The position numbers and the translations under genes are program-made. Of a DNA stretch of 64,000 bases, positions 22,611-52,109 are shown in pieces. How positions within the stretch are numbered: the first letter of the stretch is position 1; each line of letters opens with the position of its first letter. Origin of the DNA: Micromonospora tarapacensis (GTDB lineage Bacteria > Actinomycetota > Actinomycetes > Mycobacteriales > Micromonosporaceae); NCBI RefSeq assembly GCF_019697375.1, contig NZ_JAHCDI010000004.1, positions 5,443,324 to 5,507,323 on the forward strand, in the 5' to 3' direction. A model generated the notes under the pieces. That model was given only the letters and a program-made list of their open reading frames with translations. It did no database searches and was not told where the DNA came from.

Positions 22611-23273
22611 TTTGATGTCTCCCCGTTTGGTGAGTGCCGACGAACTCGGTGGGGTGCCCTTGCTGCGGAATTTCGGGCACGCCACGGGGCAACGCCGGGA
22701 CGTCAACGCCTGTTCCCGACAGGAGTAGCTGCAAGTGCTTGTTGGGCTCCCAGGGGCGGATGTGAACGCGGAGAGTGACGTGACGGAGGTTCGTGAATGG
22801 GAGCACATGTTCGAGTGACGTCAATAGTGTTAATGTGCTTACGGGGTGTCGGTGGTTGCGCCGGCCTGAGCTGACCGGGTGCCACCGCGTAGAGACCGGG
22901 CACCTCGGGTTTCGCCGCCTTGGTTTGTCGCCCCCGGTGCCTCGCCGACCTGCAGCCCGTCGGACGCTCCTATCGCACCGCGCCGCGAGTCCGAATCGAC
23001 GGGCGTATGGGGTCCCGCCCGGGCCGCGCATCGATGGGCTGGACAGTGGGCGGCGATGCCGGGGTTCGACTGGCTGGTCGACAGGTCGGTGGACCATGGA
23101 ATATCGGCTTCGCGACGTCAGGGAGGGCTCACGGCCCGGACGACGTCCAGTGGTCCGATCTCGCCGAAGCGTTCCTGTCTTCCGGGCAGCGGTTCTTTCC
23201 AGGACCGGCTCCGCTGCTGGCGGGTCGCCGGACCGGGAACTAAAACCGTCCCGGCCGCGACCAACCCGGAGTG
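22611..23273. other. gene-free region upstream of integrase
   Basis: About 660 bases between the divergent integrase and the GlxA-like regulator. Several overlapping frames are open but none has convincing protein content. I looked for a small excisionase or HTH gene and found none I could support. Promoters for both neighbours must lie here. Confidence 0.4.
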
Positions 23274-24323
23274 ATGACTGACGTTCGAGACGCCGGGATG
23301 GGTAGGGTACGCACCCGTGTGGTGCTGGTCATCCTGTTCGACGGGGTGCAGCCGATCGACGTGGCCGGGCCGGTAGATGTGTTCACGTCGGCTGCCCGCT
23401 TCGCGGGTGATCCGGACACCCCGCCGTACGTCATCCGCACCGCCTCTCTCGGTGGTGAGGCGGTCCGGGCCGCCGGCGGTCTACGCCTCGTCCCGGACGG
23501 CGACCTGGGCGGCGCCGAGGATCCGGACCTGCTGGTGGTGCCGGGCGGGCCGGGCGTGGGGGACGTCGATGACCGGCTTATCGCCTGGCTCGCCGAGCGT
23601 GTTCCCGGGGTGCCGCGGGTGGTTTCGGTGTGCACCGGGGCGTACCTGCTGGCCAAGGCCGGTCTCCTGGACGGTCGCCGGGCCGCCACCCACTGGGAGG
23701 CCTGTGGTTACCTGACGGAGATGTTTCCTCAGGTGACGTTCGATCCGGATGCCATCTTCGTCCGGGACGGGACGATCTCCACGTCGGCGGGGGCGACAGC
23801 CGGGCTTGACCTGGCCATGGCGCTGGTCGAGGAGGACTTCGGCCGCGCGGTGGCTCTGGACATCGCCCGGCTGCTGGTGTGCTACCTGCGCCGGCCGGGC
23901 AATCAGGCCCAGCTCAGCGTCCAGCTCTCGACCCAGATCGCCCGGACCGATCCGCTGCGCGAGGTGCAGTACTGGGCCGCCGCGAACCTGGCGGCTGACC
24001 TGTCCGTCCCGGCGATGGCGGAGCGTGCCGGGCTGTCTGCGCGGCAGTTCGCCCGGGCGTTCGGGGAACAGGTCGGGATGCCACCGGGCCGGTACGTGGA
24101 CCTGATCCGGCTGGAGGCCGCGCAGCGCATGCTGACAGACACCACGGATGGCGTACTCGGTATCGCTCACCGTTGTGGATATGGGTCGGCGGAGGCGATG
24201 CGCCGGGCATTCATGCGCGAACTCGACACCTCGCCGACCGAGTATCGCCGCGCGTTTGCGAAGGAGCCGATGATCCCCGGCGGATCTCGGTCGATGGCAG
24301 ATTTGTTGGCCGGTACGTCATAG
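23274..24323 (+). CDS. GlxA-family regulator (DJ-1/PfpI plus AraC HTH)
   Basis: Transcriptional regulator with two parts. Residues 15-190 form a DJ-1/PfpI (class I glutamine amidotransferase-like) domain with VVSVCTGAYLLAKAGLLDGR around the conserved cysteine. Residues 215-330 form an AraC-type double helix-turn-helix, with LSVPAMAERAGLSARQFARA and GIAHRCGYGSAEAMRRAF. In characterised members the first domain senses a small molecule and the HTH binds DNA. It precedes a FecBCD-type uptake operon by 98 bases on the same strand and likely controls it. Start is ATG 23274; GTG 23271 is equally possible. Confidence 0.88.
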   Translation: MTDVRDAGMGRVRTRVVLVILFDGVQPIDVAGPVDVFTSAARFAGDPDTPPYVIRTASLGGEAVRAAGGLRLVPDGDLGGAEDPDLLVVPGGPGVGDVDDRLIAWLAERVPGVPRVVSVCTGAYLLAKAGLLDGRRAATHWEACGYLTEMFPQVTFDPDAIFVRDGTISTSAGATAGLDLAMALVEEDFGRAVALDIARLLVCYLRRPGNQAQLSVQLSTQIARTDPLREVQYWAAANLAADLSVPAMAERAGLSARQFARAFGEQVGMPPGRYVDLIRLEAAQRMLTDTTDGVLGIAHRCGYGSAEAMRRAFMRELDTSPTEYRRAFAKEPMIPGGSRSMADLLAGTS

Positions 24324-24421
24324 GCGGGAGAGCGGGCCGCCTTCTAGGCTTCCCTGATGAATGGCGAAATGACCGTGTCCACGCCAGTTCGAGCTTTCCG
24401 CACACGCTTCATGACAGAGAT

Positions 24422-25516
24422 ATGAGCCCCGACGTGACTCTCGTTCCGGATCGTATTATCCGTACAACGCTGGCCATCGGCCTCGCCGTCGCGCTCGGTG
24501 CCTGCTCGGGGACGACGGTGCCGGACGCTCCAGTCACATCGGCGGATGAGTCGGCCGCCGCCGGTCCGCGGACGACATACCCGCTGACGATCGACAACTG
24601 CGGCCGCGAGGTCACGTTCTCCCAGGCGCCCCGCCGGGTCGTGTTGCTGAACGGCGCGTCCGTGGCCGAGGTCGAGTCGATGATCGCGCTCGGTGTCGAG
24701 GGATCCATCGTGGCCAACAGCCAGAGCTATGGCGTCTCCGACGACCCGGCGATGGTCGAGCGGATCAAGGCCATCCCGACCGGCGGGTTGAAGCTGAACA
24801 GGAACTTCGAGGTCCCCCGCGAGCAGGTGATCGGCCAGTCGCCGGATCTGGTGATCTCGACGTGGGCTGGCGGGTTCGACGACAAGATCGGCTCGATCAC
24901 CCGCGACGAGCTTGGTAAGGCCGGTATCAACAGTTTCGTGTCCCCGTCGAACTGCGCCAACGGCGCGGCCTCGCCCCGACCGCAGGACACGGCCGCGTAT
25001 GCGAAGCGGTCGGTCGAGTCGTCGTTCGAGCTGCTGAATCAGCTCGGGGTGATCTTCGACGTGCAGGGCAGGGCGGCGCAGGCCGTGCAGGAGTCGCGTA
25101 GGGCGCTGGCCGCCATCCCGGCGCCGATCGGGGCACCCAAGCGGGTGCTGGCCGCCTATCCGAGCATGGGGTCGGCGATGGGTCTCAAGGTGCCTGCCGT
25201 GTTCGGCGGCGGCATCTTCGACGACATCATCACCCGGGCCGGCGGTGTCAACGCGTTCGGCGGCCTGACTGACCAGCAGCTCACCGCACTCAACGTCGAG
25301 GCCCTCGCTGCGGCGAACGTAGACGTTCTGGTGATCGGCCTGTATCAGCCGGACGACGACGCCAAGAAGTTCGCGGAGCAGTTGTTCGCGCAGTATCCGC
25401 AGTGGCCGGCATCGAGGACCAAGACCTATACATCGGTTTCCGACAGCTTCTACCTCGGACCGCTGAACGCGGTCGCGGTCAAGAAGATCAGCGATGCCGT
25501 CCGCGCAGCGAGCTGA
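24422..25516 (+). CDS. FecB/FepB-type substrate-binding lipoprotein
   Basis: Extracytoplasmic binding protein of a metal-chelate ABC importer. A lipoprotein signal is clear: TTLAIGLAVALGACSG, with the lipobox cysteine at about residue 28. The mature part begins near TIDNCGREVTFSQAPRRVVLL, the standard opening of periplasmic binding proteins for siderophores and cobalamin, and contains VDVLVIGLYQPDDD. The start chosen is ATG 24422, because upstream residues belong to the previous gene's other frame. It overlaps the permease gene by 23 bases and shares the operon with permease, ATPase and two DJ-1/PfpI genes. The substrate is not known. Confidence 0.88.
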   Translation: MSPDVTLVPDRIIRTTLAIGLAVALGACSGTTVPDAPVTSADESAAAGPRTTYPLTIDNCGREVTFSQAPRRVVLLNGASVAEVESMIALGVEGSIVANSQSYGVSDDPAMVERIKAIPTGGLKLNRNFEVPREQVIGQSPDLVISTWAGGFDDKIGSITRDELGKAGINSFVSPSNCANGAASPRPQDTAAYAKRSVESSFELLNQLGVIFDVQGRAAQAVQESRRALAAIPAPIGAPKRVLAAYPSMGSAMGLKVPAVFGGGIFDDIITRAGGVNAFGGLTDQQLTALNVEALAAANVDVLVIGLYQPDDDAKKFAEQLFAQYPQWPASRTKTYTSVSDSFYLGPLNAVAVKKISDAVRAAS

Positions 25517-26582
25517 CCGCACCCGGCGCACCCGCCCGGAAGCGGCCCGTGCTCACCTCGTACCCGATGGTGCCGTTCCGCTGTTCATCGTGCTTTTGGC
25601 CGTCGCGGTCGTGCTGGCCGCGGCGGTCGCAATAGCCATCGGCACGGTGCCGGTTCCGCTGGCCGACGTGTTCGCGGTCACCTGGGCGCACCTCACACCG
25701 GGAGACACCGAGCGCAGCCTGCTCTACGACCAGATCGTGTGGGACTTCCGCGCTCCTCGAGTGCTACTGGCGGGGGTCGCGGGCGCGGGCCTCAGCGTCG
25801 CCGGAGTGTGTCTGCAGGCGTTGGTGCGCAACCCGCTGGCCGATCCCTACCTGCTGGGCATCTCGGGGGGTGCCTCCATCGGAGCCGCCCTAGCGCTGAG
25901 CTTCGGGCCTGCGGCGATCGCCGGATTGGGTGTCTCCGGCGCGGCCTTCGTCGGGGCGGTGATCAGCGTCGCCCTGGTCGTGGGGCTGGCGCAGCGGGCC
26001 GGCCGGGTCGCGCCGGGGCGGCTGATCTTGGCCGGGGTGGCCGTCGCTTATCTGGGCAGCGCCGTTACCAGCTACCTCCAATTGCAGGCCAACCCGGGCG
26101 AACTACGCGGCATCCTGTTCTGGGTGCTTGGCTCGGTCGCGGCGGCGTCCTGGCCGGACCTACCTGCACCGACCGTCGCCCTGGTGGTCTGCCTGCTCTG
26201 GCTGTTGGTCGACGGCCGCCGGTTGAACGCGCTGACGATGGGCGAGACGTCGGCCGCCGGACTGGGGATCGACGTCAACCGGCTGCGCCTCGGGCTGCTC
26301 GCGGTGGCGTCGCTGCTGACCGCGACGATCGTCAGCGTAGCCGGCGGAATCGGCTTTGTCGGCCTGCTGGTGCCGCACGCGGTCCGGCTGCTGGTTGGCC
26401 CCGACCATCGCCGGGTGATTCCGGTGTCGCTGCTGGTGGGGGCTGTCTTCCTGATCCTTGTCGACCTGGTGTCGCGCACTCTGGACCGGCCGAACGAGAT
26501 GCCGATCGGTATCTTCACCGCCGTGCTCGGCGCGCCCTTCTTTCTGTGGCTGCTGCGCAGCCAATCCGGGGCGGTGCGATGA
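25494..26582 (+). CDS. FecCD-type permease
   Basis: Inner-membrane permease of the same importer, 362 residues with about ten hydrophobic helices. Family signatures are LQALVRNPLADPYLLGISGGASIG, which is the loop after the second helix (shown here only as a family landmark), and GGIGFVGLLVPHAVRLLVG near the end, the ATPase-contact region. The N-terminal 25 residues are basic and cytoplasmic. The stop codon overlaps the ATPase start (ATGA). It is a paralogue of the permease at 47773. Confidence 0.9.
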   Translation: MPSAQRADRTRRTRPEAARAHLVPDGAVPLFIVLLAVAVVLAAAVAIAIGTVPVPLADVFAVTWAHLTPGDTERSLLYDQIVWDFRAPRVLLAGVAGAGLSVAGVCLQALVRNPLADPYLLGISGGASIGAALALSFGPAAIAGLGVSGAAFVGAVISVALVVGLAQRAGRVAPGRLILAGVAVAYLGSAVTSYLQLQANPGELRGILFWVLGSVAAASWPDLPAPTVALVVCLLWLLVDGRRLNALTMGETSAAGLGIDVNRLRLGLLAVASLLTATIVSVAGGIGFVGLLVPHAVRLLVGPDHRRVIPVSLLVGAVFLILVDLVSRTLDRPNEMPIGIFTAVLGAPFFLWLLRSQSGAVR

Positions 26583-27367
26583 GGGTCACGGCGACCGGTG
26601 TCTCGGTGGCCATCGACGGCACGACGATCCTCGATGACGTCTCGTTCACCGCCGCCGATGGCCGGGTGACCGGTTTGATCGGGCCGAACGGTTCCGGCAA
26701 GAGCACCCTGCTGCGCTGCCTCTACCGCATCATCCGGCCGCAGCAGGGCGCCGTACACATCGGCGAGCACGACGTCTGGCAGGTCCCCGCCCGCCGGGCC
26801 GGCCAGTTGCGGGCGGTGGTCGCCCAGGACCAGGAACTCGACAACGAGTACAGCGTCCGCGACATCGTCGCCATGGGCCGGATCCCGCACCAGGGACTGC
26901 TCGAACGGGAGAGCACGGCCGACCGCACGATCGTGGACGAGGCGCTGGCCCGCGCCCGCCTCGAGTGGGCCGAGGACAGGCGTTTCGTCGGGCTGTCCGG
27001 CGGCGAACGCCAGCGTGTCCTGCTCGCCCGCGCGCTCGCCCAGAACGCCCCGGTCCTACTGCTCGACGAGCCGACCAATCATCTCGACATCGGCGCGCAA
27101 CTGGAGCTGCTCGAGTTGATCCGCGAACTCGGGCTCACCACCGTTGCCGCCCTGCACGATCTCGACCACGCGATGTCCTACTGCGACGCCGTCGTGCTGC
27201 TGCACCATGGCCGGGTTGTCGCGGCCGACGATCCCGTCACCGTGCTCACTCCGGAACGCCTGGCCGACGTCTTCGGCGTACGGGGAGCGATGACCACCCA
27301 CCCACTCACCGGCCGGCCGCACCTGGTGTTCGCGGCACCACGTTCCGAACGGGAGCTTTCCGGATGA
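26579..27367 (+). CDS. FecE-type ABC ATPase
   Basis: ATP-binding subunit of the importer, 262 residues. Walker A GPNGSGKST lies at about 39-47, the signature LSGGERQRV at about 139, Walker B VLLLDEPTNHLD at about 159, and the switch His in ALHDLDHAM. It overlaps both neighbours by four bases. The C-terminal tail (MTTHPLTGRPHLVFA) is typical of haemin/siderophore importers. It is paralogous to 48888-49670. Confidence 0.9.
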   Translation: MRVTATGVSVAIDGTTILDDVSFTAADGRVTGLIGPNGSGKSTLLRCLYRIIRPQQGAVHIGEHDVWQVPARRAGQLRAVVAQDQELDNEYSVRDIVAMGRIPHQGLLERESTADRTIVDEALARARLEWAEDRRFVGLSGGERQRVLLARALAQNAPVLLLDEPTNHLDIGAQLELLELIRELGLTTVAALHDLDHAMSYCDAVVLLHHGRVVAADDPVTVLTPERLADVFGVRGAMTTHPLTGRPHLVFAAPRSERELSG

Positions 27368-41092: not shown

Positions 41093-41447
41093 TCAGATAG
41101 TCGGACCGCCACCGGAGGAAGTTCCCTGCCCCGCCGAGTGCCATCTGGCTGCGGGGCCGGGCCGCCAACGGGACAGGCGCAGGCTGTTCAGCACCACCAG
41201 ACGTCGCTGCCGGTCGCGACGGCGATGCCGAGGTCGGCCTCGGCCAGAGCCGCGGCGTCGTTGATGCCGTCGCCGACCATCGCCACGGTGTGCCCCTCGT
41301 CCCGCAGCCGGCACACTGTCGCGGCCTTCGCCTCCGGGGTCGACCTGGGCGGTGAGGGCCTCCGACGGCAACGCGCAGACGCCGAGCAGCACAACCCGGA
41401 AGCCCGCGACGTGGACCCGCCGTACCGCACGCCGCGGCCATAGGCCC
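41093..41447 (-). pseudogene. P1B-type metal ATPase remnant
   Basis: Pieces of the ATP-binding half of a copper/heavy-metal ATPase in two frames: [16 protein letters not shown], then [20 protein letters not shown] with the conserved DGxND, up to IAVATGSDV. This is joined directly to [11 protein letters not shown], which is the extreme C-terminus of such ATPases, in another frame. About 80-90 residues with the last membrane helices are deleted, and the N-terminal two thirds are gone. It is clearly non-functional, a relic of a copper exporter. Confidence 0.8.
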
Positions 41448-41579
41448 GACAACCACGGGCCGCCGGAAACAGGGTGGGCGATCACCTGTTCTCGGCTGCC
41501 GCCATCGGTGGGCGACGCGCCGCGAGGATGGGTACGCACCCGGAACTCCCCGACGGGGGCGTGCCGGACAGGCCGCCGG

Positions 41580-41789
41580 TCAGGCGGCGATGCCGTCGAG
41601 AGCGCCCGCGCGAGCCATCGCAACGATGTCGCTGAGCTGGCCCCCGCTGAGCCGGATGGAGTTGCCGAAATCGTCGGTGATGACCACCCGCTGCTCCGCC
41701 GGGGCTTGCGGGTCGACGTACAGCTCTGGGCAGCCGCAGTTGCAGTTGCCGCACAGCGTGAGGACGTGTACCAGGCCGTCGGTTGCCAT
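41580..41789 (-). CDS. small Cys-rich protein with CxxCxCxC motif
   Basis: A 69-residue protein from ATG 41789, with GGAGG five bases upstream. The motif TLCGNCNCGCPELYVD near the N-terminus has four cysteines in eight residues, a likely metal or cluster ligand set. The C-terminal half (ITDDFGNSIRLSGGQL, then DIVAMARAGAL) is a neat strand-helix unit. It could be a metal-binding accessory protein or a RiPP precursor-like peptide; the family is not recognised. It stands alone between the ATPase remnant and the RiPP cluster, on the opposite strand. Confidence 0.7.
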   Translation of the reverse strand: MATDGLVHVLTLCGNCNCGCPELYVDPQAPAEQRVVITDDFGNSIRLSGGQLSDIVAMARAGALDGIAA

Positions 41790-41812
41790 CTCCGCCTCCA
41801 AAGCACTTCGAG

Positions 41813-42363: not shown

Positions 42364-42465
42364 ATGATGAGTCTGGAGCTTGTCGAGGACCTCTTCGAGG
42401 ACTCGATCCAGGGTGAAATCCTGGCGTTCGCCTGCACGAAGGCACTCTCCTTCGAGGACGAGTGA
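42364..42465 (+). CDS. RiPP precursor peptide, 33 aa
   Basis: A short gene starting ATGATG with GGAGGGAGGTGA upstream, an excellent ribosome site. The peptide begins MSLELVEDLFEDSIQGE after a doubled Met and ends ILAFACTKALSFEDE. It is acidic, with a single cysteine ten residues from the end (FACTK), and has no export signal. Position as first gene, just ahead of YcaO, TfuA and MNIO genes, with no other small gene in the cluster, makes it the likely substrate. The leader/core boundary is unknown; Cys and neighbouring residues are the expected modification sites. The promoter must lie in 42167-42363. Confidence 0.7.
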   Translation: MMSLELVEDLFEDSIQGEILAFACTKALSFEDE

Positions 42466-42496
42466 CGGGACTGTCCCGGTAACACCGAAGCGTGAC

Positions 42497-42532
42497 GTTC
42501 CGGGGAGTCCTGTCGACGGGACTCTCCGGAAC
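42497..42532 (+). promoter_or_regulatory. 14-bp stem hairpin between precursor and YcaO
   Basis: GTTCCGGGGAGTCC pairs with GGACTCTCCGGAAC around an 8-base loop, with one G-U pair. No T-run follows, so it is probably a partial terminator or RNA-stabilising/processing structure that lets the precursor be made in excess over the enzymes. Confidence 0.65.
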
Positions 42533-42556
42533 CTCGTCAACCTCAGGGAGTTCGAG

Positions 42557-43735
42557 TTGAGCATCGCACCGGCCGTCGTCGGCGGCCACAAGGGACACCG
42601 ACGGGGCACCCACCGGCTGGTGCCTCCCGAGCAGACCTGGGAGAGAGTACGTCCGCTGCTGCCCGACTTCGGGATCACCCGGGTCGCCGACGTCACCGGC
42701 CTGGACACCCTCGGAATCCCTGTCTACCAGGCGATCCGGCCGACGTCGGCCACCCTCGCCGTGTCGCAGGGCAAGGGTGTGACGCGGACTCTCGCGAAGG
42801 TCTCCGCGGTGATGGAGATGATCGAGTTCGCCCTCGCCGAGCAGGTCGACCTGCCGGTGGACCGCGGGCCGACGGCGGATCTCACGGACCTGCCCTACGG
42901 CCTGCGAGAGCTGCAACTGGTTCCCGGTTCGCTGGTCAGCGACAGTGTCGTGCTGGACTGGGTGGCCGGGCGGCAGGTGAGCAGCCGCCGGGCGGTTCCG
43001 GTGCCCCTGGCCTACGTGCGGATGACCAACGAGTTCGTCCGTGAGTGGTCACCACCGCTGTTCGAGACGTCCACGAACGGGCTGGCCAGTGGCAACTCCC
43101 TCGACGAGGCGGTGTTGCACGGGCTCTACGAGCTCGTCGAGCGGGACTGCCTGACCGACGTGGAGTCCCAGCCGCGCGCCGAGCACGTGCGGATCGATGC
43201 GGACAGCGTCGCCGACGACGACTGCCGGTGGCTCATGGACCTGATGCGGGCCGCTGACAACTGGTTCGAAATCGTCGACGCGACCAACGACCTCGACCTG
43301 CCCTGTTACCTGGTGAACCTCTGGTCGCCGTCTTTTCCGATCCTCGTGTCCGGGTCCGGCTGCCACCTCGATCCGGCCGTCGCACTCAACCGGGCCCTCA
43401 CCGAGGCGGCCCAGTCGCGCCTGGCCATCATCAGTGGCACCCGGGAGAGCATCCCCGAGCAGGTGTACCTGCTGCAGAACACGTCTCAGGAACGCCCCGA
43501 ACCGTTGGCCGACGACGCCAAGGTCCGGCGGTTCGACCGCGACGACCGGTCCCACGACACGATCGCCGACGACTTGGCGGCGGTGAGCGCAATCCTGACC
43601 CACCGACGCGGTCGGGAGCCGTTCTACGTCGACCTCAGCCGTGGTCACTCGGGCTTCGCGGTGGCCAAGGCGATAGCGCCAGGTCTGCGGTTCGAAGCAG
43701 CACACGGCCTGGTGGAAAGGATCGCACCGCGATGA
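42557..43735 (+). CDS. YcaO-domain cyclodehydratase/thioamidation enzyme
   Basis: YcaO enzymes use ATP to activate peptide backbone amides, giving azolines, macroamidines or, with TfuA, thioamides. The ATP site is visible in AVSQGKGVTRTLAKVSAVME and IEFALAEQ, with the second motif NGLASGNSLDEAVLHGLYEL followed by VERD. Length is 392 residues. I choose TTG 42557 because GGAG sits seven bases upstream; the frame before it is non-coding-like. No fused RiPP recognition element or C protein is visible. The stop overlaps the TfuA start (ATGA), so YcaO and TfuA are made together, which points to thioamide formation. Confidence 0.88.
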   Translation: MSIAPAVVGGHKGHRRGTHRLVPPEQTWERVRPLLPDFGITRVADVTGLDTLGIPVYQAIRPTSATLAVSQGKGVTRTLAKVSAVMEMIEFALAEQVDLPVDRGPTADLTDLPYGLRELQLVPGSLVSDSVVLDWVAGRQVSSRRAVPVPLAYVRMTNEFVREWSPPLFETSTNGLASGNSLDEAVLHGLYELVERDCLTDVESQPRAEHVRIDADSVADDDCRWLMDLMRAADNWFEIVDATNDLDLPCYLVNLWSPSFPILVSGSGCHLDPAVALNRALTEAAQSRLAIISGTRESIPEQVYLLQNTSQERPEPLADDAKVRRFDRDDRSHDTIADDLAAVSAILTHRRGREPFYVDLSRGHSGFAVAKAIAPGLRFEAAHGLVERIAPR

Positions 43736-45150
43736 GCGTCCATGTTTTCGCCGGCCCGACGATCGACGCCGCGACGATCGGCGAAAGACTACCCGAGGCG
43801 GTCGTGCACCCGCCGGTACGACACGGAGACCTGCTCGCGTTGGGGCTCGTCCCAGGTGACACGGTGGCCATCATCGACGGGGTGTTCTTCCGGACCGGCG
43901 CGATCCGGCACAAGGAGATCCTGCACCTGCTCCAGTCCGGTGTCACGGTGTGGGGCGCGAGCAGCATGGGAGCCCTGCGCGCCGCCGAACTCGACCGGTA
44001 CGGCATGCGGGGCGTCGGGGTCGTCCACCGCCTCTACCGCACCGGGGTGATCGACGGCGACGACGAGGTCGCCCTACTGCACGCCGAAGCCGACGACGGG
44101 TACCGCGTGATGAGCGAGGCCCTGGTGTCGGTGCGGGTCGCCACCCGCCGCGCCCGGGTCGCCGGAGTCGTCACGGCCGCCGACGAGAAGCACCTCTGCG
44201 CCGTCGCCAAAAGCCTGGCGTTCGGTGACCGCACCTACCGCCGGATCACCGCCGCGGCCGCCGCCGACGGTCTGCCCACCAGCACCGCCAAGGATTTCCG
44301 CGACTTCGTCGCCGGACGCGACACCGACGTCAAACGGCGGGACGCGCTCGCGCTGCTTGCCCGCCTCGCCGCATCGCCACGCGACTCCGGCCCGCCACTC
44401 CCGGACGGGCAGCCGATGCCCATGACCTCCTTTCTGCTTCGCTGGATGCGGTCGGCCCCGGTCGCGTCCGTCCTCGACACCGGCGTGTCCGACCTCGCGA
44501 CCTTGACCGCGGTCCAGCTTTTCGCGGAGGACTACCCGGCCCTGCACCGGCGGCTGATCCTCGGCGAGTTGCTTCGCTGCACGGCTCCGCCGAATGGACC
44601 GAAACCAATCACGCCCGGCGAGGACGACCAGTCACGACTGACCGAGCGGGCACTCGACGCGGCGCGGCGACGCGGCTTGATCCCGCACCTCGTGACCGAG
44701 GTGCCCACGGCGTTTCGTCACTGGCTCGCACCGGAGGAACTCTCCCTGCCACCGGACGAGGCCCTGACTCGTGCGATGGTGCGATCGTTTCGGTGGTCGC
44801 CGAACGTGCGGGTGGTGGAGCCGATCGTCGAGGCGTTGGCCGGCACCGAGGCGTGGCACAGGGCCCGGGAACTGGTGGCCCGCGCGCACCAGTGCAACGC
44901 GCGGCTGGCGGAACTGCGCCCGACGTTCAATGCGCACTACATCGCGGACGCGAAGATCCGGGGCTGGGTCGCGCACCGGTGGGGCGTCACAGATCCGACG
45001 ACGGCGATGCTCGACCGCGGCTTCGGGGGGCAGCCGGACCTGCGCGCCCGGGCCACGATGTTCCTGCCGCTGGACCGGATGGAACCGATCGCGCCCCTGG
45101 TCATCGGGGGTGTGAAAGCCCCGGCGGTGGCCGGGGGCCGGTCAGCGTGA
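43732..45150 (+). CDS. TfuA-domain protein
   Basis: The first 230 residues are a TfuA-like domain: VHVFAGPTIDAATI, IIDGVFFRTGAIRHKEILHL, GVTVWGASSMGALRAAELD and the YRTGVIDGDDEVALLH segment are all typical. TfuA partners YcaO in making peptide thioamides, probably by bringing in sulfur, as in methyl-coenzyme M reductase and thioviridamide-type clusters. The C-terminal 240 residues are a helical extension (APEELSLPPDEALTRAMVRS and following) I cannot assign, longer than in minimal TfuA proteins. It overlaps YcaO and the exporter at its two ends. Confidence 0.87.
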   Translation: MSVHVFAGPTIDAATIGERLPEAVVHPPVRHGDLLALGLVPGDTVAIIDGVFFRTGAIRHKEILHLLQSGVTVWGASSMGALRAAELDRYGMRGVGVVHRLYRTGVIDGDDEVALLHAEADDGYRVMSEALVSVRVATRRARVAGVVTAADEKHLCAVAKSLAFGDRTYRRITAAAAADGLPTSTAKDFRDFVAGRDTDVKRRDALALLARLAASPRDSGPPLPDGQPMPMTSFLLRWMRSAPVASVLDTGVSDLATLTAVQLFAEDYPALHRRLILGELLRCTAPPNGPKPITPGEDDQSRLTERALDAARRRGLIPHLVTEVPTAFRHWLAPEELSLPPDEALTRAMVRSFRWSPNVRVVEPIVEALAGTEAWHRARELVARAHQCNARLAELRPTFNAHYIADAKIRGWVAHRWGVTDPTTAMLDRGFGGQPDLRARATMFLPLDRMEPIAPLVIGGVKAPAVAGGRSA

Positions 45151-46703
45151 CCGGTAAGGCGGTGGCCCACCAACGGGTGACGGTGGTGATGGGCGGGCTG
45201 CTGGTGGCCATGTTCCTCGCCTCGGTGGATCAGACGATCGTCGCCGCAGCCCTGCCGACCGTCGTCGGAGACCTTGGCGCACCGGACCAGTACGCGTGGG
45301 TTCTCACGGCTTACCTGTTGGCCGAGACGGCGGCGACGCCGGTCTTCGGCAAAGCCGGGGACCTGTACGGTCGCAAGCGCGTCCTCCAGGTCTCCGTGCT
45401 GGTCTTCGCCGTCGGATCGGTGCTGTGCGCGTTGGCCGGGGCCATGTGGCAGCTCGCCGCGTTTCGGGCCGTGCAGGGCATCGGCGCGGGTGGAATCATC
45501 GCCGCGACCCTCGGCGTCGTCGCTGACCTGATCCCGCCCCGGGAGCGAGGTCGCTACCAGGGCGCCTACGTCAGCGTGTTCGCCCTGGCCGCGATACTCG
45601 GACCACCCCTGGGAGGGGTTCTGGTCGACGGCCCGGGGTGGCGGTGGGCCTTCTGGGGCAGCGCCGTCCTCGCCGTCGCGGTGCTCGTGGTGATCAGCAT
45701 GGTGCTCACCCTGCCGGCGGTGACCCGTACCGTGGCGGTGGACTGGTGGGGTGCGGCGCTGCTGGTCGCTGCGGTCAGCGCGGTGGTGCTGGCGGTGTCC
45801 CTCGGCGGCCGTCACCTGGCGTGGACCTCGCCGCCGATGCTGGCCCTGCTGGCCGCCGCGACATGCCTCGTCGTTCTCTTCGTCAGACGGGAACGGGCGT
45901 TCGTGGAGCCGATGCTTCCGCCGGGGATGTTCACCGAGCCGGTCTTCACCGTCAGCGTACTGCTGGCCTTCCTCACTGGCGGGATCATGCTCGGCGCGCT
46001 TGCGTTCCTGCCGCAGTTCCTGCAACTGGCGCAGGGATTCAGCGCCACCGTCGCCGGGCTCGCCCTGGTGCCGGTCCTCGCGGCGGCGCTGGTCGCGTCG
46101 ACCATCGTCGGCCGGTGGGTCAGCCGGATCGGCAGGTACCGACCGTTCCCCATCCTCGGCATGGGGGCGTTGTGCTTGGGCCTGGCCCTGCTCACCCAGC
46201 TCCAGGTGGACACCCCGTACCCGTTGCTGGTGGTGCCGTTGCTGCTTCTCGGGGTCGGGGTCGGCATGTCCACGCCGGTGCTGTTCGTCGCCGTGCAGAA
46301 CGCCGCCGACCCGAGACACGTCGGGGTGGCGTCCGCCGCGGTGACCTTCTTCCGGTCCCTCGGCGGCGCGATCGGCGCCGCGGTCTTCGGCGCCGTACTC
46401 ATCGCCCGGTTGGACGTAAACCTCGTGGCGGCGCTGCCGGACCTCACCGGCGGGGTCAACGCGATCATCGACGCGCCGCGACAGGTGGCGATGCTCGCGC
46501 CCGAAACCCGCGACGCCGTCCGAGAGGCGTACGCCGCGAGCTTTCGTCAGACGATCCTCGCCGCCGTCGGGCTGTCGGTGGGCGCGTGGCTGCTGAGCTG
46601 GCGATTACCCGACAGGGAACTGGGCGACGGCACCCCGACGTCGGCGGTCGATGAACAACGCGAAGAAGTCGGGAACCACAGCCCGAAGGAATCCGACTAT
46701 TGA
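45147..46703 (+). CDS. MFS exporter, DHA2 (14-helix) type
   Basis: A 518-residue drug:proton antiporter-like transporter. The early helices include FLASVDQTIVAAALPTVVGD and the loop GKAGDLYGRKRVLQ (motif A). About fourteen membrane helices can be counted to the SVGAWLLSWRLP end. It begins at GTG 45147, overlapping the TfuA stop (GTGA), so it belongs to the RiPP operon and is the likely exporter of the finished product and a self-protection factor. Confidence 0.9.
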   Translation: MTGKAVAHQRVTVVMGGLLVAMFLASVDQTIVAAALPTVVGDLGAPDQYAWVLTAYLLAETAATPVFGKAGDLYGRKRVLQVSVLVFAVGSVLCALAGAMWQLAAFRAVQGIGAGGIIAATLGVVADLIPPRERGRYQGAYVSVFALAAILGPPLGGVLVDGPGWRWAFWGSAVLAVAVLVVISMVLTLPAVTRTVAVDWWGAALLVAAVSAVVLAVSLGGRHLAWTSPPMLALLAAATCLVVLFVRRERAFVEPMLPPGMFTEPVFTVSVLLAFLTGGIMLGALAFLPQFLQLAQGFSATVAGLALVPVLAAALVASTIVGRWVSRIGRYRPFPILGMGALCLGLALLTQLQVDTPYPLLVVPLLLLGVGVGMSTPVLFVAVQNAADPRHVGVASAAVTFFRSLGGAIGAAVFGAVLIARLDVNLVAALPDLTGGVNAIIDAPRQVAMLAPETRDAVREAYAASFRQTILAAVGLSVGAWLLSWRLPDRELGDGTPTSAVDEQREEVGNHSPKESDY

Positions 46704-46759
46704 GCCGAGTCCGTCAACAGGTCCCATCAGCTCGGAATTTCTCTCAGGGAGTCAACAGC

Positions 46760-47767
46760 GTGACATTCTCTCGATGGTCGAGGTCTATCGCGGCCGCTGC
46801 GGCCGTCGTCCTGCTCGCCGCCTGCGGAACCGACAGTGGGTCCGAGACGGACGGCAACAGCGCTACCGCCTCTGGCGCTGCCTTTCCCATCACCATCAGC
46901 AACTGCGGCACCGACGTGACGTTCGAAGCGCCACCGAAACGGGTGGTGGCGATGGACCAGATATCCACGGAATCGCTGCTGCACCTCGGTCTGCGGGAGG
47001 CGTTGGCCGGCACCGCGTTTCGCAACGACGAGATCTTCCCGACGGTCGCCGGTGAGTACCAGCAGGTCAAGGTGCTGGCAGAAATGTACCCCTCCAAGGA
47101 GGTGCTGCTCAGCGCCGAGCCCGACATGATCGTCGGCAACATCGACTTCTTCACCTACAGTGGCTTCCCGCCCGGCACCAACTTCACCCGCCAGGAACTC
47201 ACCGACAGCGGAATCAAGTCGTACACGTTGCAGTGCCAGGGTGAGAAGCCCGACCCGGAGCGGATGTTCACCCGGTTCGTCGAGCTCGCCTCGATCTTCG
47301 GCGTCACCGCCGAGGCGGAGAAGATCGTCGCCGAGGTCAAGGGGTCGTTGGAGAAGACGCAGGCCGTCCTCGGCAGCAGCCAGGCGGTGCCCACTTTCGT
47401 GTACCGCTCGGGCACCGGTCCGTTGTCGACCTTCGGAGGTGGCGGCGGCTCCGACTACGGGCTGGGCCGCGCCGGCGGCAAGAACATCTTCGGCGACCGG
47501 GCCGCGCTGCCGCCGCCGGAGGTGAGTGTCGAGTCCGTCGTCGACCTGAATCCGCAGGCCATCCTGATCTCCGACGAGGACGAGCAGTCGCCACAGGACA
47601 AGGAGAAGTTCCTGCGTTCCGTGCTGGCCGAGACCGGCGCGGTGCGTAACGGCAGGTTCTGCACCATCGACTTCTACGCGTTCGGGACACCACTTCGGCT
47701 GGCACGTGACGCCAACGTCGTCGGCAAGTGCCTGCACCCCGACCTGACGTTTCCCACCCTTCCCTGA
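46760..47767 (+). CDS. FecB-type substrate-binding lipoprotein of the RiPP cluster
   Basis: Binding protein of a metal-chelate importer. The start GTG 46760 has GGAG eight bases upstream and gives a clean lipoprotein signal (RSIAAAAAVVLLAACG); TTG 46700 overlapping the exporter stop is the alternative. The mature part opens with ITISNCGTDVTFEAPPKRVV as in other FecB proteins. A Gly-rich loop STFGGGGGSDYG lies in the middle. Its sequence relates it to the protein at 24422. Encoded between the exporter and the permease, it likely recaptures the metal-loaded peptide product. Confidence 0.88.
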   Translation: MTFSRWSRSIAAAAAVVLLAACGTDSGSETDGNSATASGAAFPITISNCGTDVTFEAPPKRVVAMDQISTESLLHLGLREALAGTAFRNDEIFPTVAGEYQQVKVLAEMYPSKEVLLSAEPDMIVGNIDFFTYSGFPPGTNFTRQELTDSGIKSYTLQCQGEKPDPERMFTRFVELASIFGVTAEAEKIVAEVKGSLEKTQAVLGSSQAVPTFVYRSGTGPLSTFGGGGGSDYGLGRAGGKNIFGDRAALPPPEVSVESVVDLNPQAILISDEDEQSPQDKEKFLRSVLAETGAVRNGRFCTIDFYAFGTPLRLARDANVVGKCLHPDLTFPTLP

Positions 47768-47772
47768 CCCGA

Positions 47773-48891
47773 ATGGTCACCGACACGAGACCTGCCGCCC
47801 CGGTTGCGTTGCATCGGGGCGGCAGGTTCGCGGCCCGACCTCGACTGCCGTTTCCTCTGGTCATCACCGTGCTGACAGCGGCGCTGGTGATGACGTTGAC
47901 CACGGCCGTCACGATCGGGCCGGTCGCGATCCCGTTCCTGCAGGTGTGGCAGATCGTCGCCGAACAGATCCACCCCGGCTGGGGAGGGCCGGTCACCTGG
48001 ACTCCGGCTCGTGAGCAGATCGTGTTCGACCTCCGGCTGCCCCGGGTGATCCTCGGGGCGACGGTCGGCGCCGGGCTCGCCGTGGTCGGCGTGACACTGC
48101 AGGCATTGGTACGCAACCCGCTGGCCGACCCGTACGTCTTCGGTATCACCTCCGGGGCGTCTACCGGCGCCACCGCCATGCTCGCCCTGGGCATCGGAGC
48201 CTTCGGCAGCACCTCGCTGTCCGTGACCGCGTTTCTCGGCGCGGTCGTCGCCTTCGCCCTGGTCCTGATGCTCGCTGGCGGGACGGGCGGGATCTCGCCG
48301 AGTCGGCTCATCCTCGCCGGCCTGATCGTCGGCTACACCATGTCTGCGGTGACCAGCCTGATGGTGTTCCTGGCCAGCACCGCCGGCCAGTCGAGCATCG
48401 CCGAAACGATCCTGTTCTGGTTGCTCGGTGGGCTCGGCGGAGCCCGGTGGTCACACGTGCTGCTGCCGGCGGTGGCAGCAGCCGCCGGCACCATCGCGAT
48501 GGCCACCCAGGCCCGATCGCTCAACGCGCTGCTCGTCGGCGAGGAGACCGCCGCCACGCTCGGCGTCCAGGTAGCCCGGTTCCGGCTGGTCATGTTCAGC
48601 GTCGCCGCCCTGGTCACCGGGGTCATGGTCGCGGTCAGCGGCGGCATCGGCTTCGTCGGTCTGATGGTGCCGCACGCGGTCAGGATGCTGGTCGGCTCCG
48701 ACCACCGCCGGGTCCTACCCGTGTCGGTCCTGCTCGGCGCGATCTTCCTGGTCTGGGCCGACGTCCTCGCCCGAACCGTGGTGGCACCCCAGGAACTACC
48801 GATCGGCATCATCACCGCGCTGGTCGGGGCACCCTTCTTCATCACCCTGATGCGGTCACGCCGCCGGCTGTCGATGGTGGGTCAACGATGA
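47773..48891 (+). CDS. FecCD-type permease of the RiPP cluster
   Basis: A 372-residue permease with about ten helices. Landmarks are LQALVRNPLADPYVFGIT after the second helix and GGIGFVGLMVPHAVRMLVG near the end, which contacts the ATPase. The ATG 47773 start is five bases after the previous stop. It overlaps the ATPase gene. It is the second such permease in this island and is paralogous to 25494-26582. Confidence 0.9.
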   Translation: MVTDTRPAAPVALHRGGRFAARPRLPFPLVITVLTAALVMTLTTAVTIGPVAIPFLQVWQIVAEQIHPGWGGPVTWTPAREQIVFDLRLPRVILGATVGAGLAVVGVTLQALVRNPLADPYVFGITSGASTGATAMLALGIGAFGSTSLSVTAFLGAVVAFALVLMLAGGTGGISPSRLILAGLIVGYTMSAVTSLMVFLASTAGQSSIAETILFWLLGGLGGARWSHVLLPAVAAAAGTIAMATQARSLNALLVGEETAATLGVQVARFRLVMFSVAALVTGVMVAVSGGIGFVGLMVPHAVRMLVGSDHRRVLPVSVLLGAIFLVWADVLARTVVAPQELPIGIITALVGAPFFITLMRSRRRLSMVGQR

Positions 48892-49670
48892 TGCTCCGGA
48901 CCACGTCGCTGTCGATGACCATCGACCAGCAGCCGATCGTCCACGACGTCGACGTCTGGGTCGACAAGTCGGAGATCGTCGGTCTCGTCGGCCCCAACGG
49001 CAGCGGCAAATCCACGCTGCTACGGGGGATCTACCGCGTTCTGCGCCCCGAGGATGGGCAGGTCGCGCTCGACGGGGTGGACGTGTGGCGGATGTCCGCC
49101 CGGGCTGCGGCCCGCCGAATGGCTGTCCTGGTGCAGGAAAGCCCTACCGACTTCGACTTCGAGGTCGAGGAGATCGTGCGGATGGGCCGGGCGCCACACC
49201 TGGGCCTGCTCCGCTCTGCCGGGCGCGACGACAAACGAATCATTGACGAGGCCCTGCGACGGGTCGACGCGACAGACCTTCAGAACCGCAGGTTCCGGAC
49301 CCTCTCCGGTGGCGAGAAACAGCGAGTCCTTCTCGCCCGGGCGTTGACGCAGCAGCCGGACCTGCTGGTGCTCGACGAACCGACCAACCACCTCGACATT
49401 CGGCATCAACTCGAGACCCTGGAGCTGATGCGCCGGCTGGGCGTAGCGACGCTCACCGCGCTGCACGACCTCAACCTCGCCGCCGCCTACTGTGACCGGC
49501 TCTACGTCCTCGCCGACGGCCGAGTGGTCGCCACCGGCCCACCGGCAGAGGTGCTGACTCCCGAACTGGTGGGCACCGTGTTCGGTGTCGGTGCCGTCTC
49601 GACGGTCAACCCGGTGACCGGCCGGGTCCACCTGTCGTTCCACCCCCTACCCCCGGAGCCCGACCAATGA
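48888..49670 (+). CDS. FecE-type ABC ATPase of the RiPP cluster
   Basis: A 260-residue ATPase. Walker A GPNGSGKST, signature LSGGEKQRV, Walker B LVLDEPTNHLD and the switch His in ALHDLNLAA are all intact. It starts at ATG 48888 in an ATGATG overlapping the permease stop, and its own stop overlaps the methyltransferase start (ATGA). With the two previous genes it forms a complete uptake system inside the biosynthetic operon. Confidence 0.9.
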   Translation: MMLRTTSLSMTIDQQPIVHDVDVWVDKSEIVGLVGPNGSGKSTLLRGIYRVLRPEDGQVALDGVDVWRMSARAAARRMAVLVQESPTDFDFEVEEIVRMGRAPHLGLLRSAGRDDKRIIDEALRRVDATDLQNRRFRTLSGGEKQRVLLARALTQQPDLLVLDEPTNHLDIRHQLETLELMRRLGVATLTALHDLNLAAAYCDRLYVLADGRVVATGPPAEVLTPELVGTVFGVGAVSTVNPVTGRVHLSFHPLPPEPDQ

Positions 49671-50458
49671 CCGCCGACACCTCCACCAATGAGACCTCCA
49701 CCGAAGAGGACCACGGCCTGGCCAACCGTCGCGCCTGGAACCGGATGGCCGACCAGTACCAGCAGATGATGGCCCACCTGACTGCTCCCAGTGGGCTGAC
49801 CTGGGGTTGGTGGCAGCACCCGGAGAGCCAGCTTGGTGTCCTCGGCGATCCAGCAGGCCGCGACGTGCTCGACCTCGGCTGCGGCAGTGCCGGCTGGTCC
49901 CGCACGCTGAGCCGCGCCGGCGCCAGGGTCGTCGGCATCGACGCCGCCATTCGACAGCTCAACCACGCCGTCACCGCCGCAGCGACAACCGGAACCCCTC
50001 TCGGGCTGGTCAACGCCGACGCCGAACGACTGCCGTTCGGGGACGCCACCTTCGACATCGCCGTGTCCAACTGGGGCGCCCTGAGCTTCGCGGACCCGAC
50101 CCGGGCGGTACCCGAGGCAGCCCGCGTCCTGCGGCCCGGCGGCCTCCTGGTGGTCTGCACCTCAAGCCCGATCTTCTGGCTCGCCAGCGACGGGCACAAC
50201 GAGCAGCCCGACGAGCGGCTCCGTCGTAGCTACTTCGACCTGTCCCGCAGCCCGGGCAACACCGGCACGGTGCGCTTCCAACTCACCTACGGCGGATGGA
50301 TCGACGTGTTCCGGCGCTGCTGCCTGCAGGTGGAGGCGCTCATCGAGCCGCAGCCCGACCCACAGATCGAGCTACCGGATCATCTCGACGCCGACAGGTG
50401 GCGCCGCTGGCTGGCCCAGTGGCCGTTCGACACGATCTGGAAGGTCCGCAAGCAGTAG
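49667..50458 (+). CDS. class I SAM-dependent methyltransferase
   Basis: A 263-residue methyltransferase. The SAM motif VLDLGCGSAGWSRTLSRAGA and the acidic tip VVGIDAA are clear, followed by FDIAVSNWGALSF and a post-motif ARVLRPGGLLVV. It is of the small-molecule/ubiquinone-like type, without a peptide-binding extension. The four-base overlap with the ATPase gene and 17 bases to the MNIO gene make it part of the RiPP operon, where it may methylate the peptide, for example at an amide nitrogen, sulfur or terminus. Confidence 0.85.
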   Translation: MTADTSTNETSTEEDHGLANRRAWNRMADQYQQMMAHLTAPSGLTWGWWQHPESQLGVLGDPAGRDVLDLGCGSAGWSRTLSRAGARVVGIDAAIRQLNHAVTAAATTGTPLGLVNADAERLPFGDATFDIAVSNWGALSFADPTRAVPEAARVLRPGGLLVVCTSSPIFWLASDGHNEQPDERLRRSYFDLSRSPGNTGTVRFQLTYGGWIDVFRRCCLQVEALIEPQPDPQIELPDHLDADRWRRWLAQWPFDTIWKVRKQ

Positions 50459-50475
50459 ATCGAGGGAGGACCCGG

Positions 50476-51327
50476 ATGGACACCCCGTGGCCACGCGCTG
50501 CCGACCTGCCCGAACTGGGAGTAGGGGTCGGTCTACGAGCGGAGATGGAACAACAGATCGTCGAGCACCCGGACCAGATCGACTGGCTGGAACTCATCAC
50601 CGAGGACTTCCTGGTCAACCCGCAACGGCGGGAGTCCATCCCTTCGTTGCGGGAACGGTTTCCACTCGTCCCGCACGGGGTCGAGTTGTCCATCGGCGGC
50701 ATCGAACCGCTCGACGAGGCGTACCTCACCGCCCTTGCCTGCCTCGTCGCCGAGGTCGACGCGCCCTGGTGCAGCGACCACCTGTGCTACACCCGGGCGG
50801 GCGGCATCGCCCTCGGCGCGCTACTTCCCCTGCCCCGCACCGAGGAGGTAGTCGACCGCGTGGCCGCCCGAGTGCGCCGCATCCAGGAAACGGTCGGCGT
50901 GCCGTTCCTGCTGGAGAACATCAGCTCGTTCATCGACCTGCCGGGGGAGATGTCCGACGCCGAGTTCCTCACCGCGGTCGTCGAGCGGGCCGACTGCGGC
51001 ATCCTGCTGGACCTGACCAACGTCTACAACAACGCCGTCAACCACGACTTCAACCCCATCGCCTACCTGGACGCCATCCCGTTGGGGCGCGTCGTCCAAG
51101 TCCACCTCGCCGGCGGCACCTGGGCCGGTGAGCTGCTGCAGGACAACCACCGGGCACCCGTACACACGCAGGTATGGGACCTGCTCCGGCACGTCGTGCC
51201 CACATCACCGCTGCGCGGCTTTTTGATCGAACGCGACGGCAAACTCCCCGACGACTTCCCCGAGGTGTTGGCCGACATCGCGCAAACCCGGCAGGTGCTC
51301 GCCACCACCGGCCAGGTGAGCAGGTGA
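50476..51327 (+). CDS. DUF692/MNIO multinuclear iron-dependent oxidase
   Basis: A member of the DUF692 family, which includes MbnB (methanobactin) and TglH and uses a di- or tri-iron centre to rearrange Cys or other residues of RiPP precursors. Iron-ligand positions are present: H67 in PHGVELSIGG, D101-H102 in WCSDHLCY, E147-N148 in LLENISSF, D179 and N182 in LLDLTNVY, plus H190, H210 in QVHLAGG, and H225. Length of 283 residues is usual. The start ATG 50476 has GGGAGGA upstream. The partner gene overlaps its stop (GTGA). The single Cys of the precursor is the obvious target. Confidence 0.92.
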   Translation: MDTPWPRAADLPELGVGVGLRAEMEQQIVEHPDQIDWLELITEDFLVNPQRRESIPSLRERFPLVPHGVELSIGGIEPLDEAYLTALACLVAEVDAPWCSDHLCYTRAGGIALGALLPLPRTEEVVDRVAARVRRIQETVGVPFLLENISSFIDLPGEMSDAEFLTAVVERADCGILLDLTNVYNNAVNHDFNPIAYLDAIPLGRVVQVHLAGGTWAGELLQDNHRAPVHTQVWDLLRHVVPTSPLRGFLIERDGKLPDDFPEVLADIAQTRQVLATTGQVSR

Positions 51328-52109
51328 GTACAGAAGCCGTCCAGATCGCCCTCGCGCGTCTGCTGGTCGACCCGCGACTTCGTCAACGCTGGACGACGGA
51401 TCCCGGTGGCGCGTTGTCCGAGTTTCCCCTGACCGACCGCGAAGTCGCCATGCTGGCGGGAATCGACGCCCACCGGCTGGCATTCACCGCCGGTGGCATC
51501 ACCCGCGCTCGCAGCCGGACACTGAAACGCATGTTCGCGACCACCCTACGGCGGGTGGGCGACGCGTCGATCGTTGACCGGATCGTGACCGGCTTCGTCG
51601 ACGGCGACCTGCCGCTGGAGGGACGCAACGACGCCGACAAGTGGGTTGCCGAGGGCAAACGCTTCGTAGCCCATCTGGAACGACTGGCCGAAGATGGCAC
51701 GGTCCCCTCCACTCTCGCCGGTCTGGCCCAGCTCGAATGGCTCCGCGCCGACCTGCGCTACAGCAGCGCCGCAGCGATCGCAGCGGCGGCGGCTGGGACA
51801 GGCCCCGCCCCGGGGCCAGAAGCCCAACTGAGGCTCGCCGCACATGTCCGAGTCGTCGAACTGCGCTCCGACGTACTGGCTTCCGCCGCGGGCCCTCCAT
51901 CGGCTCAGGCCGGCACCGTGCATCTCGCATTGGTCCGCCGGCACCCGGACGGTCGCTCCGACGTCTTCCGGCTAAACTCCGCGGCCGCTGAGCTCTACCA
52001 CCAGTGCGACGGCACCCGCTCCGTCGCCGACCTGACCGACGGCGATCCTGACCGGCAACGACAATTGACCGAAGCGGTAAGGGCAGGACTGCTGGTATCC
52101 GTGCGATGA
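51324..52109 (+). CDS. MNIO partner protein with C-terminal PqqD-like domain
   Basis: A 261-residue protein that overlaps the MNIO gene by four bases. The N-terminal 170 residues (LARLLVDPRLRQRW, GGALSEFPLTDREVAMLAGI) look like the helical partner proteins that accompany MNIO enzymes. The last 85 residues contain FRLNSAAAELYHQCDGTRSV followed by ADL, which follows the PqqD pattern LNxTAxxILxLCDGxRTVxEI; PqqD-type domains bind RiPP leader peptides. It is therefore a likely leader-binding adaptor for MNIO and perhaps for YcaO, which lacks such a domain. It is the last gene of the operon. Confidence 0.8.
   Translation: MSTEAVQIALARLLVDPRLRQRWTTDPGGALSEFPLTDREVAMLAGIDAHRLAFTAGGITRARSRTLKRMFATTLRRVGDASIVDRIVTGFVDGDLPLEGRNDADKWVAEGKRFVAHLERLAEDGTVPSTLAGLAQLEWLRADLRYSSAAAIAAAAAGTGPAPGPEAQLRLAAHVRVVELRSDVLASAAGPPSAQAGTVHLALVRRHPDGRSDVFRLNSAAAELYHQCDGTRSVADLTDGDPDRQRQLTEAVRAGLLVSVR

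Follow-up and report, generated by a model that had tools for sequence, protein, structure and literature searches.

A conserved, rare RiPP gene cluster in Micromonospora tarapacensis combines YcaO-TfuA and MNIO genes with an exporter and a FecBCD-type importer

What does a peptide cluster make when it carries two unusual kinds of modifying enzyme together with both an exporter and an importer? The question is raised by ten genes in a 64,000-nucleotide stretch of DNA (the window) from the 6.9-Mb genome of Micromonospora tarapacensis (contig NZ_JAHCDI010000004.1, positions 5,443,324 to 5,507,323). The genes occupy positions 42364-52109 of the window, all on the (+) strand (Table 1), and include those for a YcaO-TfuA pair, a multinuclear non-heme iron-dependent oxidative enzyme (MNIO; DUF692) and a major facilitator superfamily (MFS) exporter. 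The first-pass annotation described them as a cluster for a ribosomally synthesized and post-translationally modified peptide (RiPP) that unites YcaO-TfuA and MNIO genes with an exporter and an importer, and both gene content and conserved gene order support this description. We conclude that the cluster is real, conserved and rare and that its product is very probably a thioamidated, MNIO-modified peptide. That this peptide is exported and re-imported as a ribosomal metallophore we put at a probability of roughly 0.5.

The coordinates, strand and Pfam matches of the ten genes agree with the products first named for them. As had also been noted, the genes mostly overlap by four bases (6 of the 9 junctions, provided that the binding protein begins at TTG 46700); with the chosen starts, the other junctions are a 91-base gap after the precursor gene, 5 bases before the FecCD gene and 17 bases before the MNIO gene. 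YcaO and TfuA genes stand next to each other beside a short precursor, the genetic arrangement of a YcaO-TfuA thioamidated RiPP, and the top equivalog model for the YcaO protein is the McrA-glycine thioamidation YcaO, at a score below its cut-off. Peripla_BP_2, FecCD and ABC_tran matches, all over the Pfam cut-offs, lie in one operon and together make up a FecBCD-type importer, the binding protein of which has a lipobox-like LLAAC (by eye). The description of the last gene product as a PqqD-bearing partner held only in part: a PqqD-like match is present, but at 18.3-18.8 bits it is weak and stays short of the cut-off (23.4), and the matches to Os1348 and ApyI/HvfC are likewise below cut-off. 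The NGO1945_C model, which presumably represents the gonococcal protein of PDB entry 3DEE, was weakly matched by 2 of the 11 aligned partners. The accessible part of PMC13097082 terms the 3DEE protein a type 1 MNIO partner.

We scanned 84,980 species genomes with the MNIO alignment by means of two short peptide patterns; of the 140 relatives detected, the top 80 loci were retained. Among these 80, some of which are too short for gene order to be judged, only Verrucosispora sioxanthis (locus L014) has the same YcaO-TfuA-MFS-binding protein-FecC-ATPase-methyltransferase-MNIO-partner order, with 52-77% identity. Micromonospora andamanensis retains the 3′ part of the ATPase gene (query residues 86-255), the methyltransferase, the MNIO and a partner with an altered C terminus, all 94% identical to their V. 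sioxanthis counterparts at the nucleotide level, and judging from these genes the locus is a decayed remnant. Across the genus, MNIO matches at E ≤ 1e-60 were found in 8 of 160 genomes, three of which (M. tarapacensis included) reach 77-100% identity; a plasmid collection yielded three MNIO matches (41-43%), none of them close. The arrangement is more than a chance assembly because the order of the nine larger genes is the same in V. sioxanthis and because the differences between the two precursor genes are biased toward synonymous codons.

Specifically, the V. sioxanthis precursor, MAMLELVEDLFESEIQGEILAFSCTKALSFEDE, is identical to that of M. tarapacensis at 28 of 33 residues and at 18 of the last 19. 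The two genes differ at 21 nucleotides, 13 of them at third codon positions, with 12 synonymous and 5 nonsynonymous codons (pS 0.585, pN 0.115), and over the last 18 codons (stop included) the differences comprise one first-position and six third-position changes; on this codon comparison, the precursor is under purifying selection. We propose a layout with a leader at approximately residues 1-19, a core around FACTK and then an acidic tail. The only Cys, at position 24, is conserved in V. sioxanthis together with its flanking residues. A DNA pattern combined with direct comparison found the precursor in 5 of 177 loci, all from these two genomes. By eye, the 33 residues are acidic and have no N-terminal signal-like hydrophobic stretch, that is, no visible Sec signal peptide, and some inverted repeats upstream of the gene were listed, none of them interpretable.

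The MNIO itself carries His, Asp, Glu and Asn motif residues that are invariant in 16 aligned sequences and that we take to be metal ligands. The best curated model is BufB (247.6-247.8 bits, below the NCBIfam cut-off of 310), followed by HvfB and ApyH, also below cut-off, and all 16 aligned MNIOs match these three models at E ≤ 1e-20. The MbnB model TIGR04159 scores 40.2 bits against a cut-off of 325, which places the enzyme outside the MbnB type. We also considered the candidate precursors encoded near other MNIOs. For MNIOs outside the clade of the M. tarapacensis enzyme, they contain Cys repeats wherever seen (within ~0.5 kb upstream): a Cys-rich MGVLPCCMCGGCCRCYA of the CCMCGGCCRC type in Nocardia (where, at loci L016-L018, Cys-rich precursors ending in CCMCGGCCRCYA or similar lie immediately 5′ of the MNIO and no YcaO was found), PMPCGGCG in Actinosynnema, CSGCGSCSGCAHSGC of the CSGCGSCSGC type in Nonomuraea and Spongiactinospora, APGCASCSSCGGCTGC in a genus mate and SCKGKE repeats in Melainabacteria and others. 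Many MNIO loci showed no convincing precursor (e.g., L019, L021-L023, L029, L040 and genus mates L174 and L175). Because MNIOs outside the clade adjoin Cys-rich precursors where any was seen and the enzyme scores best with the BufB, HvfB and ApyH models, Cys24 is its likely target. A second MNIO gene, also over the Pfam cut-off, lies elsewhere in the M. tarapacensis genome (L238; C4:567582-568358, (−) strand).

How often do YcaO and MNIO genes travel together? For metagenomes, equal contig size served as a stand-in for genomic context, a device that can miss linkage, as with the V. sioxanthis binding protein, which is absent from the list although the gene is present. Among the matches listed, 13 MNIO relatives (56-77% identity) were found, and 9 of them lie on contigs equal in size to those of YcaO relatives (61-74% identity), namely 666828 (V. 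sioxanthis), 6445498, 65991, 20231, 11231, 8317, 7529, 4969 and 4511 bases; the 6445498-base contig is the whole chromosome of Micromonospora sp. WMMA1923 and so gives weak evidence of closeness. Three of the four MNIO relatives that lack a YcaO match are on 1.2-1.6 kb contigs, and the fourth is on one of 11202 bases. In a maximum-likelihood tree of 50 chosen MNIOs, 10 YcaO-linked rows fall within a 14-row clade with support 100/100. On these grounds, YcaO and MNIO genes recur as partners. The importer shows links of the same kind: a close YcaO and a homologue of the binding protein lie on contigs of equal size in M. craniellae (contig 142412; 76% and 69%) and in a metagenome (contig 14552; 68% and 46%).

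Turning to the importer, we found ATPase matches at E ≤ 1e-75 in 12 of the 160 genus genomes, three of which are the M. tarapacensis cluster, V. sioxanthis and the M. andamanensis remnant. Eight of the nine remaining loci were read, and four of these adjoin metallophore-type or metal-handling genes: a P-type ATPase (CopA) with an HMA domain and a CPC motif immediately downstream (L184), nonribosomal peptide synthetase and MFS genes (L188), an ATP-grasp gene with an MFS gene (L186), and CobW, three YcaO genes and TfuA (L165). Metal-related genes also flank the V. sioxanthis cluster: one side has genes for a copper-type P-type ATPase (CopA), a small protein judged CopZ-like by inspection, a sigma factor and a ZnuA-like protein. 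Directly after the cluster on the other side (L014 11850-18579) stand an MFS gene, a NikA/CntA-like binding protein and Opp/Nik-type ABC genes, part of which M. andamanensis retains.

L165 (1-13639) and L235 (5194-13945), from different actinomycete families, represent a second cluster type with two further YcaO genes, a YcaO-TfuA pair and FecBCD genes. L165 additionally encodes a prolyl oligopeptidase and a candidate His-rich precursor, MDKKLLRRVSTRTRSGAPVLHSHNHAVAGSPFAWE. Such clusters could produce a peptide metallophore linked to zinc or cobalt.

How does the cluster compare with known systems? In methanobactin biosynthesis, an MNIO and its partner act on a leader-bearing precursor, and the product is exported and imported. 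To judge from its genes, the M. tarapacensis cluster resembles methanobactin in having an MNIO with a partner, a leader-bearing precursor, and export and import, but differs in that its MNIO is only distantly alike, its precursor has a single Cys, and YcaO-TfuA, a methyltransferase and a FecBCD importer are present. Bufferins and oxazolins, the families of the best-scoring curated models BufB and HvfB, have Cys-derived copper ligands; in contrast to the M. tarapacensis peptide, with one Cys and no visible Sec signal, their precursors have Sec signals according to the accessible part of PMC12452194, which also describes copper as bound by published Cys-derived MNIO products. Adjacent YcaO and TfuA genes, as here, are found for thioviridamide-like RiPPs, thiovarsolins, thioamidated thiopeptides and chimeric lanthipeptides.

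The pairing of YcaO-TfuA with an MNIO, which the first-pass annotation had singled out, is present but not unprecedented. The std cluster of Streptomyces thermodiastaticus precedes it (PMC13174530, a preprint of May 2026). As described in the accessible part of that preprint, YcaO-TfuA thioamidates an Asn, homocitrulline is formed by a peptidase-carbamoyltransferase that also trims the peptide, and the MNIO bis-hydroxylates the homocitrulline. Both clusters have YcaO, TfuA, MNIO, an MFS protein and a partner, which bears a RiPP recognition element (RRE) in std and is RRE-like here, and in both the precursor contains a conserved core of few residues. They differ in that std has an S8/S53-NodU peptidase-carbamoyltransferase fusion and an SNKEWQE core, whereas the core here is FACTK with a conserved Cys, and in that the same part of the preprint, which lists StdA and StdD to StdI, mentions neither an importer nor a methyltransferase. 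The accessible text of two MNIO family surveys (PMC12452194 and PMC13097082) does not mention TfuA, and YcaO appears once, in the references of the former; the main text of two surveys of thioamidated RiPPs (PMC8120280 and PMC6511847) mentions neither DUF692, siderophore, FecCD nor Micromonospora. Our literature search, which left subscription papers largely outside its coverage, found no cluster with YcaO-TfuA, MNIO and FecBCD, and the earlier statement that no compound is described from this exact combination stands for the literature searched. The cluster falls within the MNIO- and YcaO-TfuA-modified RiPPs, and its exact combination appears to be new.

From gene content, we propose the following pathway. 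The RRE-like MNIO partner would bind the precursor leader, YcaO with TfuA would thioamidate the backbone at one position within the FACTK region, and the MNIO with its partner would oxidise Cys24, with a ring of the oxazolone or thiooxazole type as the most likely outcome. The methyltransferase would methylate the product, and a protease encoded outside the ten genes would remove the leader, possibly along with the acidic tail. After export by the MFS protein, the peptide would return as a metal complex, bound first by the binding protein and then taken up through the FecCD permease with its ATPase. Our first guess at the metal is copper, tentatively and at less than even odds. Bolder still, and in our view rather unlikely, is that the cluster founds a new class of peptide chalkophore RiPPs, in which YcaO-TfuA and MNIO jointly place thioamide and Cys-derived ligands side by side on a single short core, with dedicated export and FecBCD re-import, and that beyond the clade, YcaO-TfuA clusters such as L165 and L235 widely make FecBCD-imported peptide metallophores.

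The idea of an exported and re-imported metallophore, already put forward in the first-pass annotation, draws on the Cys-rich precursors of MNIO relatives, on the four metal-linked importer loci out of eight and on the position of the importer inside a conserved operon. A set of observations weighs against it. Methanobactin has two Cys as ligand sources, and the single Cys here gives fewer ligands. No protease domain was found among the ten genes by a Pfam scan, and no IdeR- or Zur-type box was found in the window (up to 3 mismatches to the consensus; copper boxes not searched). Four of the importer loci read (L185, L187, L189 and L190), of which only some genes were scanned, showed no clear metallophore or metal gene. 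The proposed check of YcaO, TfuA, DUF692 and FecBCD co-occurrence recovered the whole set in V. sioxanthis but also less favourable results. In 87 other YcaO loci from the family and class (all matches listed at E ≤ 1e-50, stretches of ~9 kb on each side, less at contig ends, the two complete clusters excluded), TfuA was present in 85, the remaining two being contigs that end just after YcaO; an MNIO was present in none and FecCD with a binding protein in 2. YcaO and MNIO also occur together on two environmental contigs (4969 and 4511 bases) that leave too little space between the two genes for an exporter and an importer; in these cases, the transporter genes may be dispensable or located at another site. 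Contigs 65991 and 20231, with YcaO and MNIO, are not among the binding-protein matches listed, and contigs 142412 and 14552, with YcaO and the binding protein, are not among the MNIO matches listed; both listings are incomplete. Finally, according to the accessible part of PMC13174530, the substrate residue of the std MNIO is a modified Lys, not a Cys.

Could the peptide instead be a secreted antibiotic or signal, with FecBCD importing something else, e.g., iron for the MNIO or a vitamin-like cofactor? The classes of thioamidated RiPPs listed in the accessible part of PMC13174530 are not known as metallophores, and the two compact environmental contigs fit such a peptide as well. So do the importer models, which also count against the metallophore reading: for the binding protein, F420-0 transport is best, followed by siderophore (EitA), and for the ATPase, F420-0 transport is best, followed by corrinoid and haem, all under cut-off. 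However, the importer lies within the operon and is kept there in V. sioxanthis, half of the importer relatives read adjoin metallophore-type or metal genes, and the second YcaO-TfuA cluster type likewise has an importer; we consider this alternative unlikely.

Still less probable is chemistry of the std kind, in which YcaO-TfuA would thioamidate the residue before Lys, the MNIO would hydroxylate a non-Cys residue of CTK, and metal binding would be absent or incidental. The CTK here precedes a conserved acidic tail, much as the std core has SNK before its follower, next to a similar enzyme set that includes an MFS protein (accessible part of PMC13174530). Yet SNKEWQE is absent from the precursor and from the 177 loci scanned, the ten genes contain no S8/S53-NodU, carbamoyltransferase or peptidase domain, and MNIOs outside the clade accompany Cys-rich peptides where seen. 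A copper-buffering, bufferin-like peptide that binds excess copper outside the cell, with the importer recycling or sensing it, would suit the bufferin maturases as best curated models and the CopA gene near the V. sioxanthis cluster; since the precursor has no visible Sec signal but comes with its own importer and MFS exporter, and just a CopA fragment lies beside the M. tarapacensis cluster, we regard it as very improbable. Among these readings, we favor the re-imported metallophore.

Table 1. Features of the cluster and its immediate surroundings (positions in the window)
Feature	Position	Strand	Evidence and remarks
CopA-like fragment (93 residues, 50%)	41200..41475	-	Full-length homologue near V. 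sioxanthis cluster
Small protein with CGNCNCGCPE motif	41595..41798	-	Divergent from cluster; 85% identical homologue beside V. sioxanthis cluster
33-residue precursor, MMSLELVEDLFEDSIQGEILAFACTKALSFEDE	42364..42465	+	Translation; V. sioxanthis L014 homologue from 1992
YcaO	42557..43735	+	Pfam YcaO 3.8e-64; start TTG inferred
TfuA partner protein	43732..45150	+	Pfam TfuA 1.4e-40; TfuA domain and C-terminal extension
MFS exporter, DHA2/EmrB-like	45147..46703	+	Pfam MFS_1 1.1e-56
Substrate-binding protein	46700..47767	+	Pfam Peripla_BP_2 2e-17; alternative start 46757
FecCD-type permease	47773..48891	+	Pfam FecCD 4e-91
Importer ATPase, siderophore/B12/haem class	48888..49670	+	Pfam ABC_tran 1.6e-32
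S-adenosylmethionine methyltransferase	49667..50458	+	Pfam Methyltransf_11 6.9e-21
MNIO (DUF692) enzyme	50476..51327	+	Pfam MbnB_TglH_ChrH 2e-83
Likely MNIO partner	51324..52109	+	Os1348/NHLP-like N-terminal and PqqD-like C-terminal matches, both below cut-off

The CopA-like fragment next to the cluster is a remnant and not a cluster member. The neighboring CGNCNCGCPE gene was considered as a second precursor gene and set aside. It occurs in 9 of the 160 genus genomes (84-88% conserved), and its product has no Pfam or NCBIfam match; the V. sioxanthis copy adjoins a gene for a 267-residue protein, the first part of which weakly resembles a macrolactam cyclase. The gene is probably not part of the cluster, because 7 of the 9 carrier genomes have no MNIO match at E ≤ 1e-60, the only two that do being M. 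tarapacensis and V. sioxanthis. Elsewhere in the window, a second binding-protein/FecCD importer lies at 24173-27279, with an ATPase assigned by DNA similarity only, and is preceded at 23271 by a regulator gene of the DJ-1/AraC type; the L190 importer, too, has a DJ-1/PfpI gene next to it.

If the metallophore reading is true, actinomycetes would have a methanobactin-like strategy in which separate enzymes make the thioamide and the ring, and thioamidated RiPPs would gain a role in metal uptake. The short, conserved substrate means that two unusual enzyme families could be tested in one pot and, if borne out, the cluster would provide a new kind of ribosomal metal-scavenging molecule.

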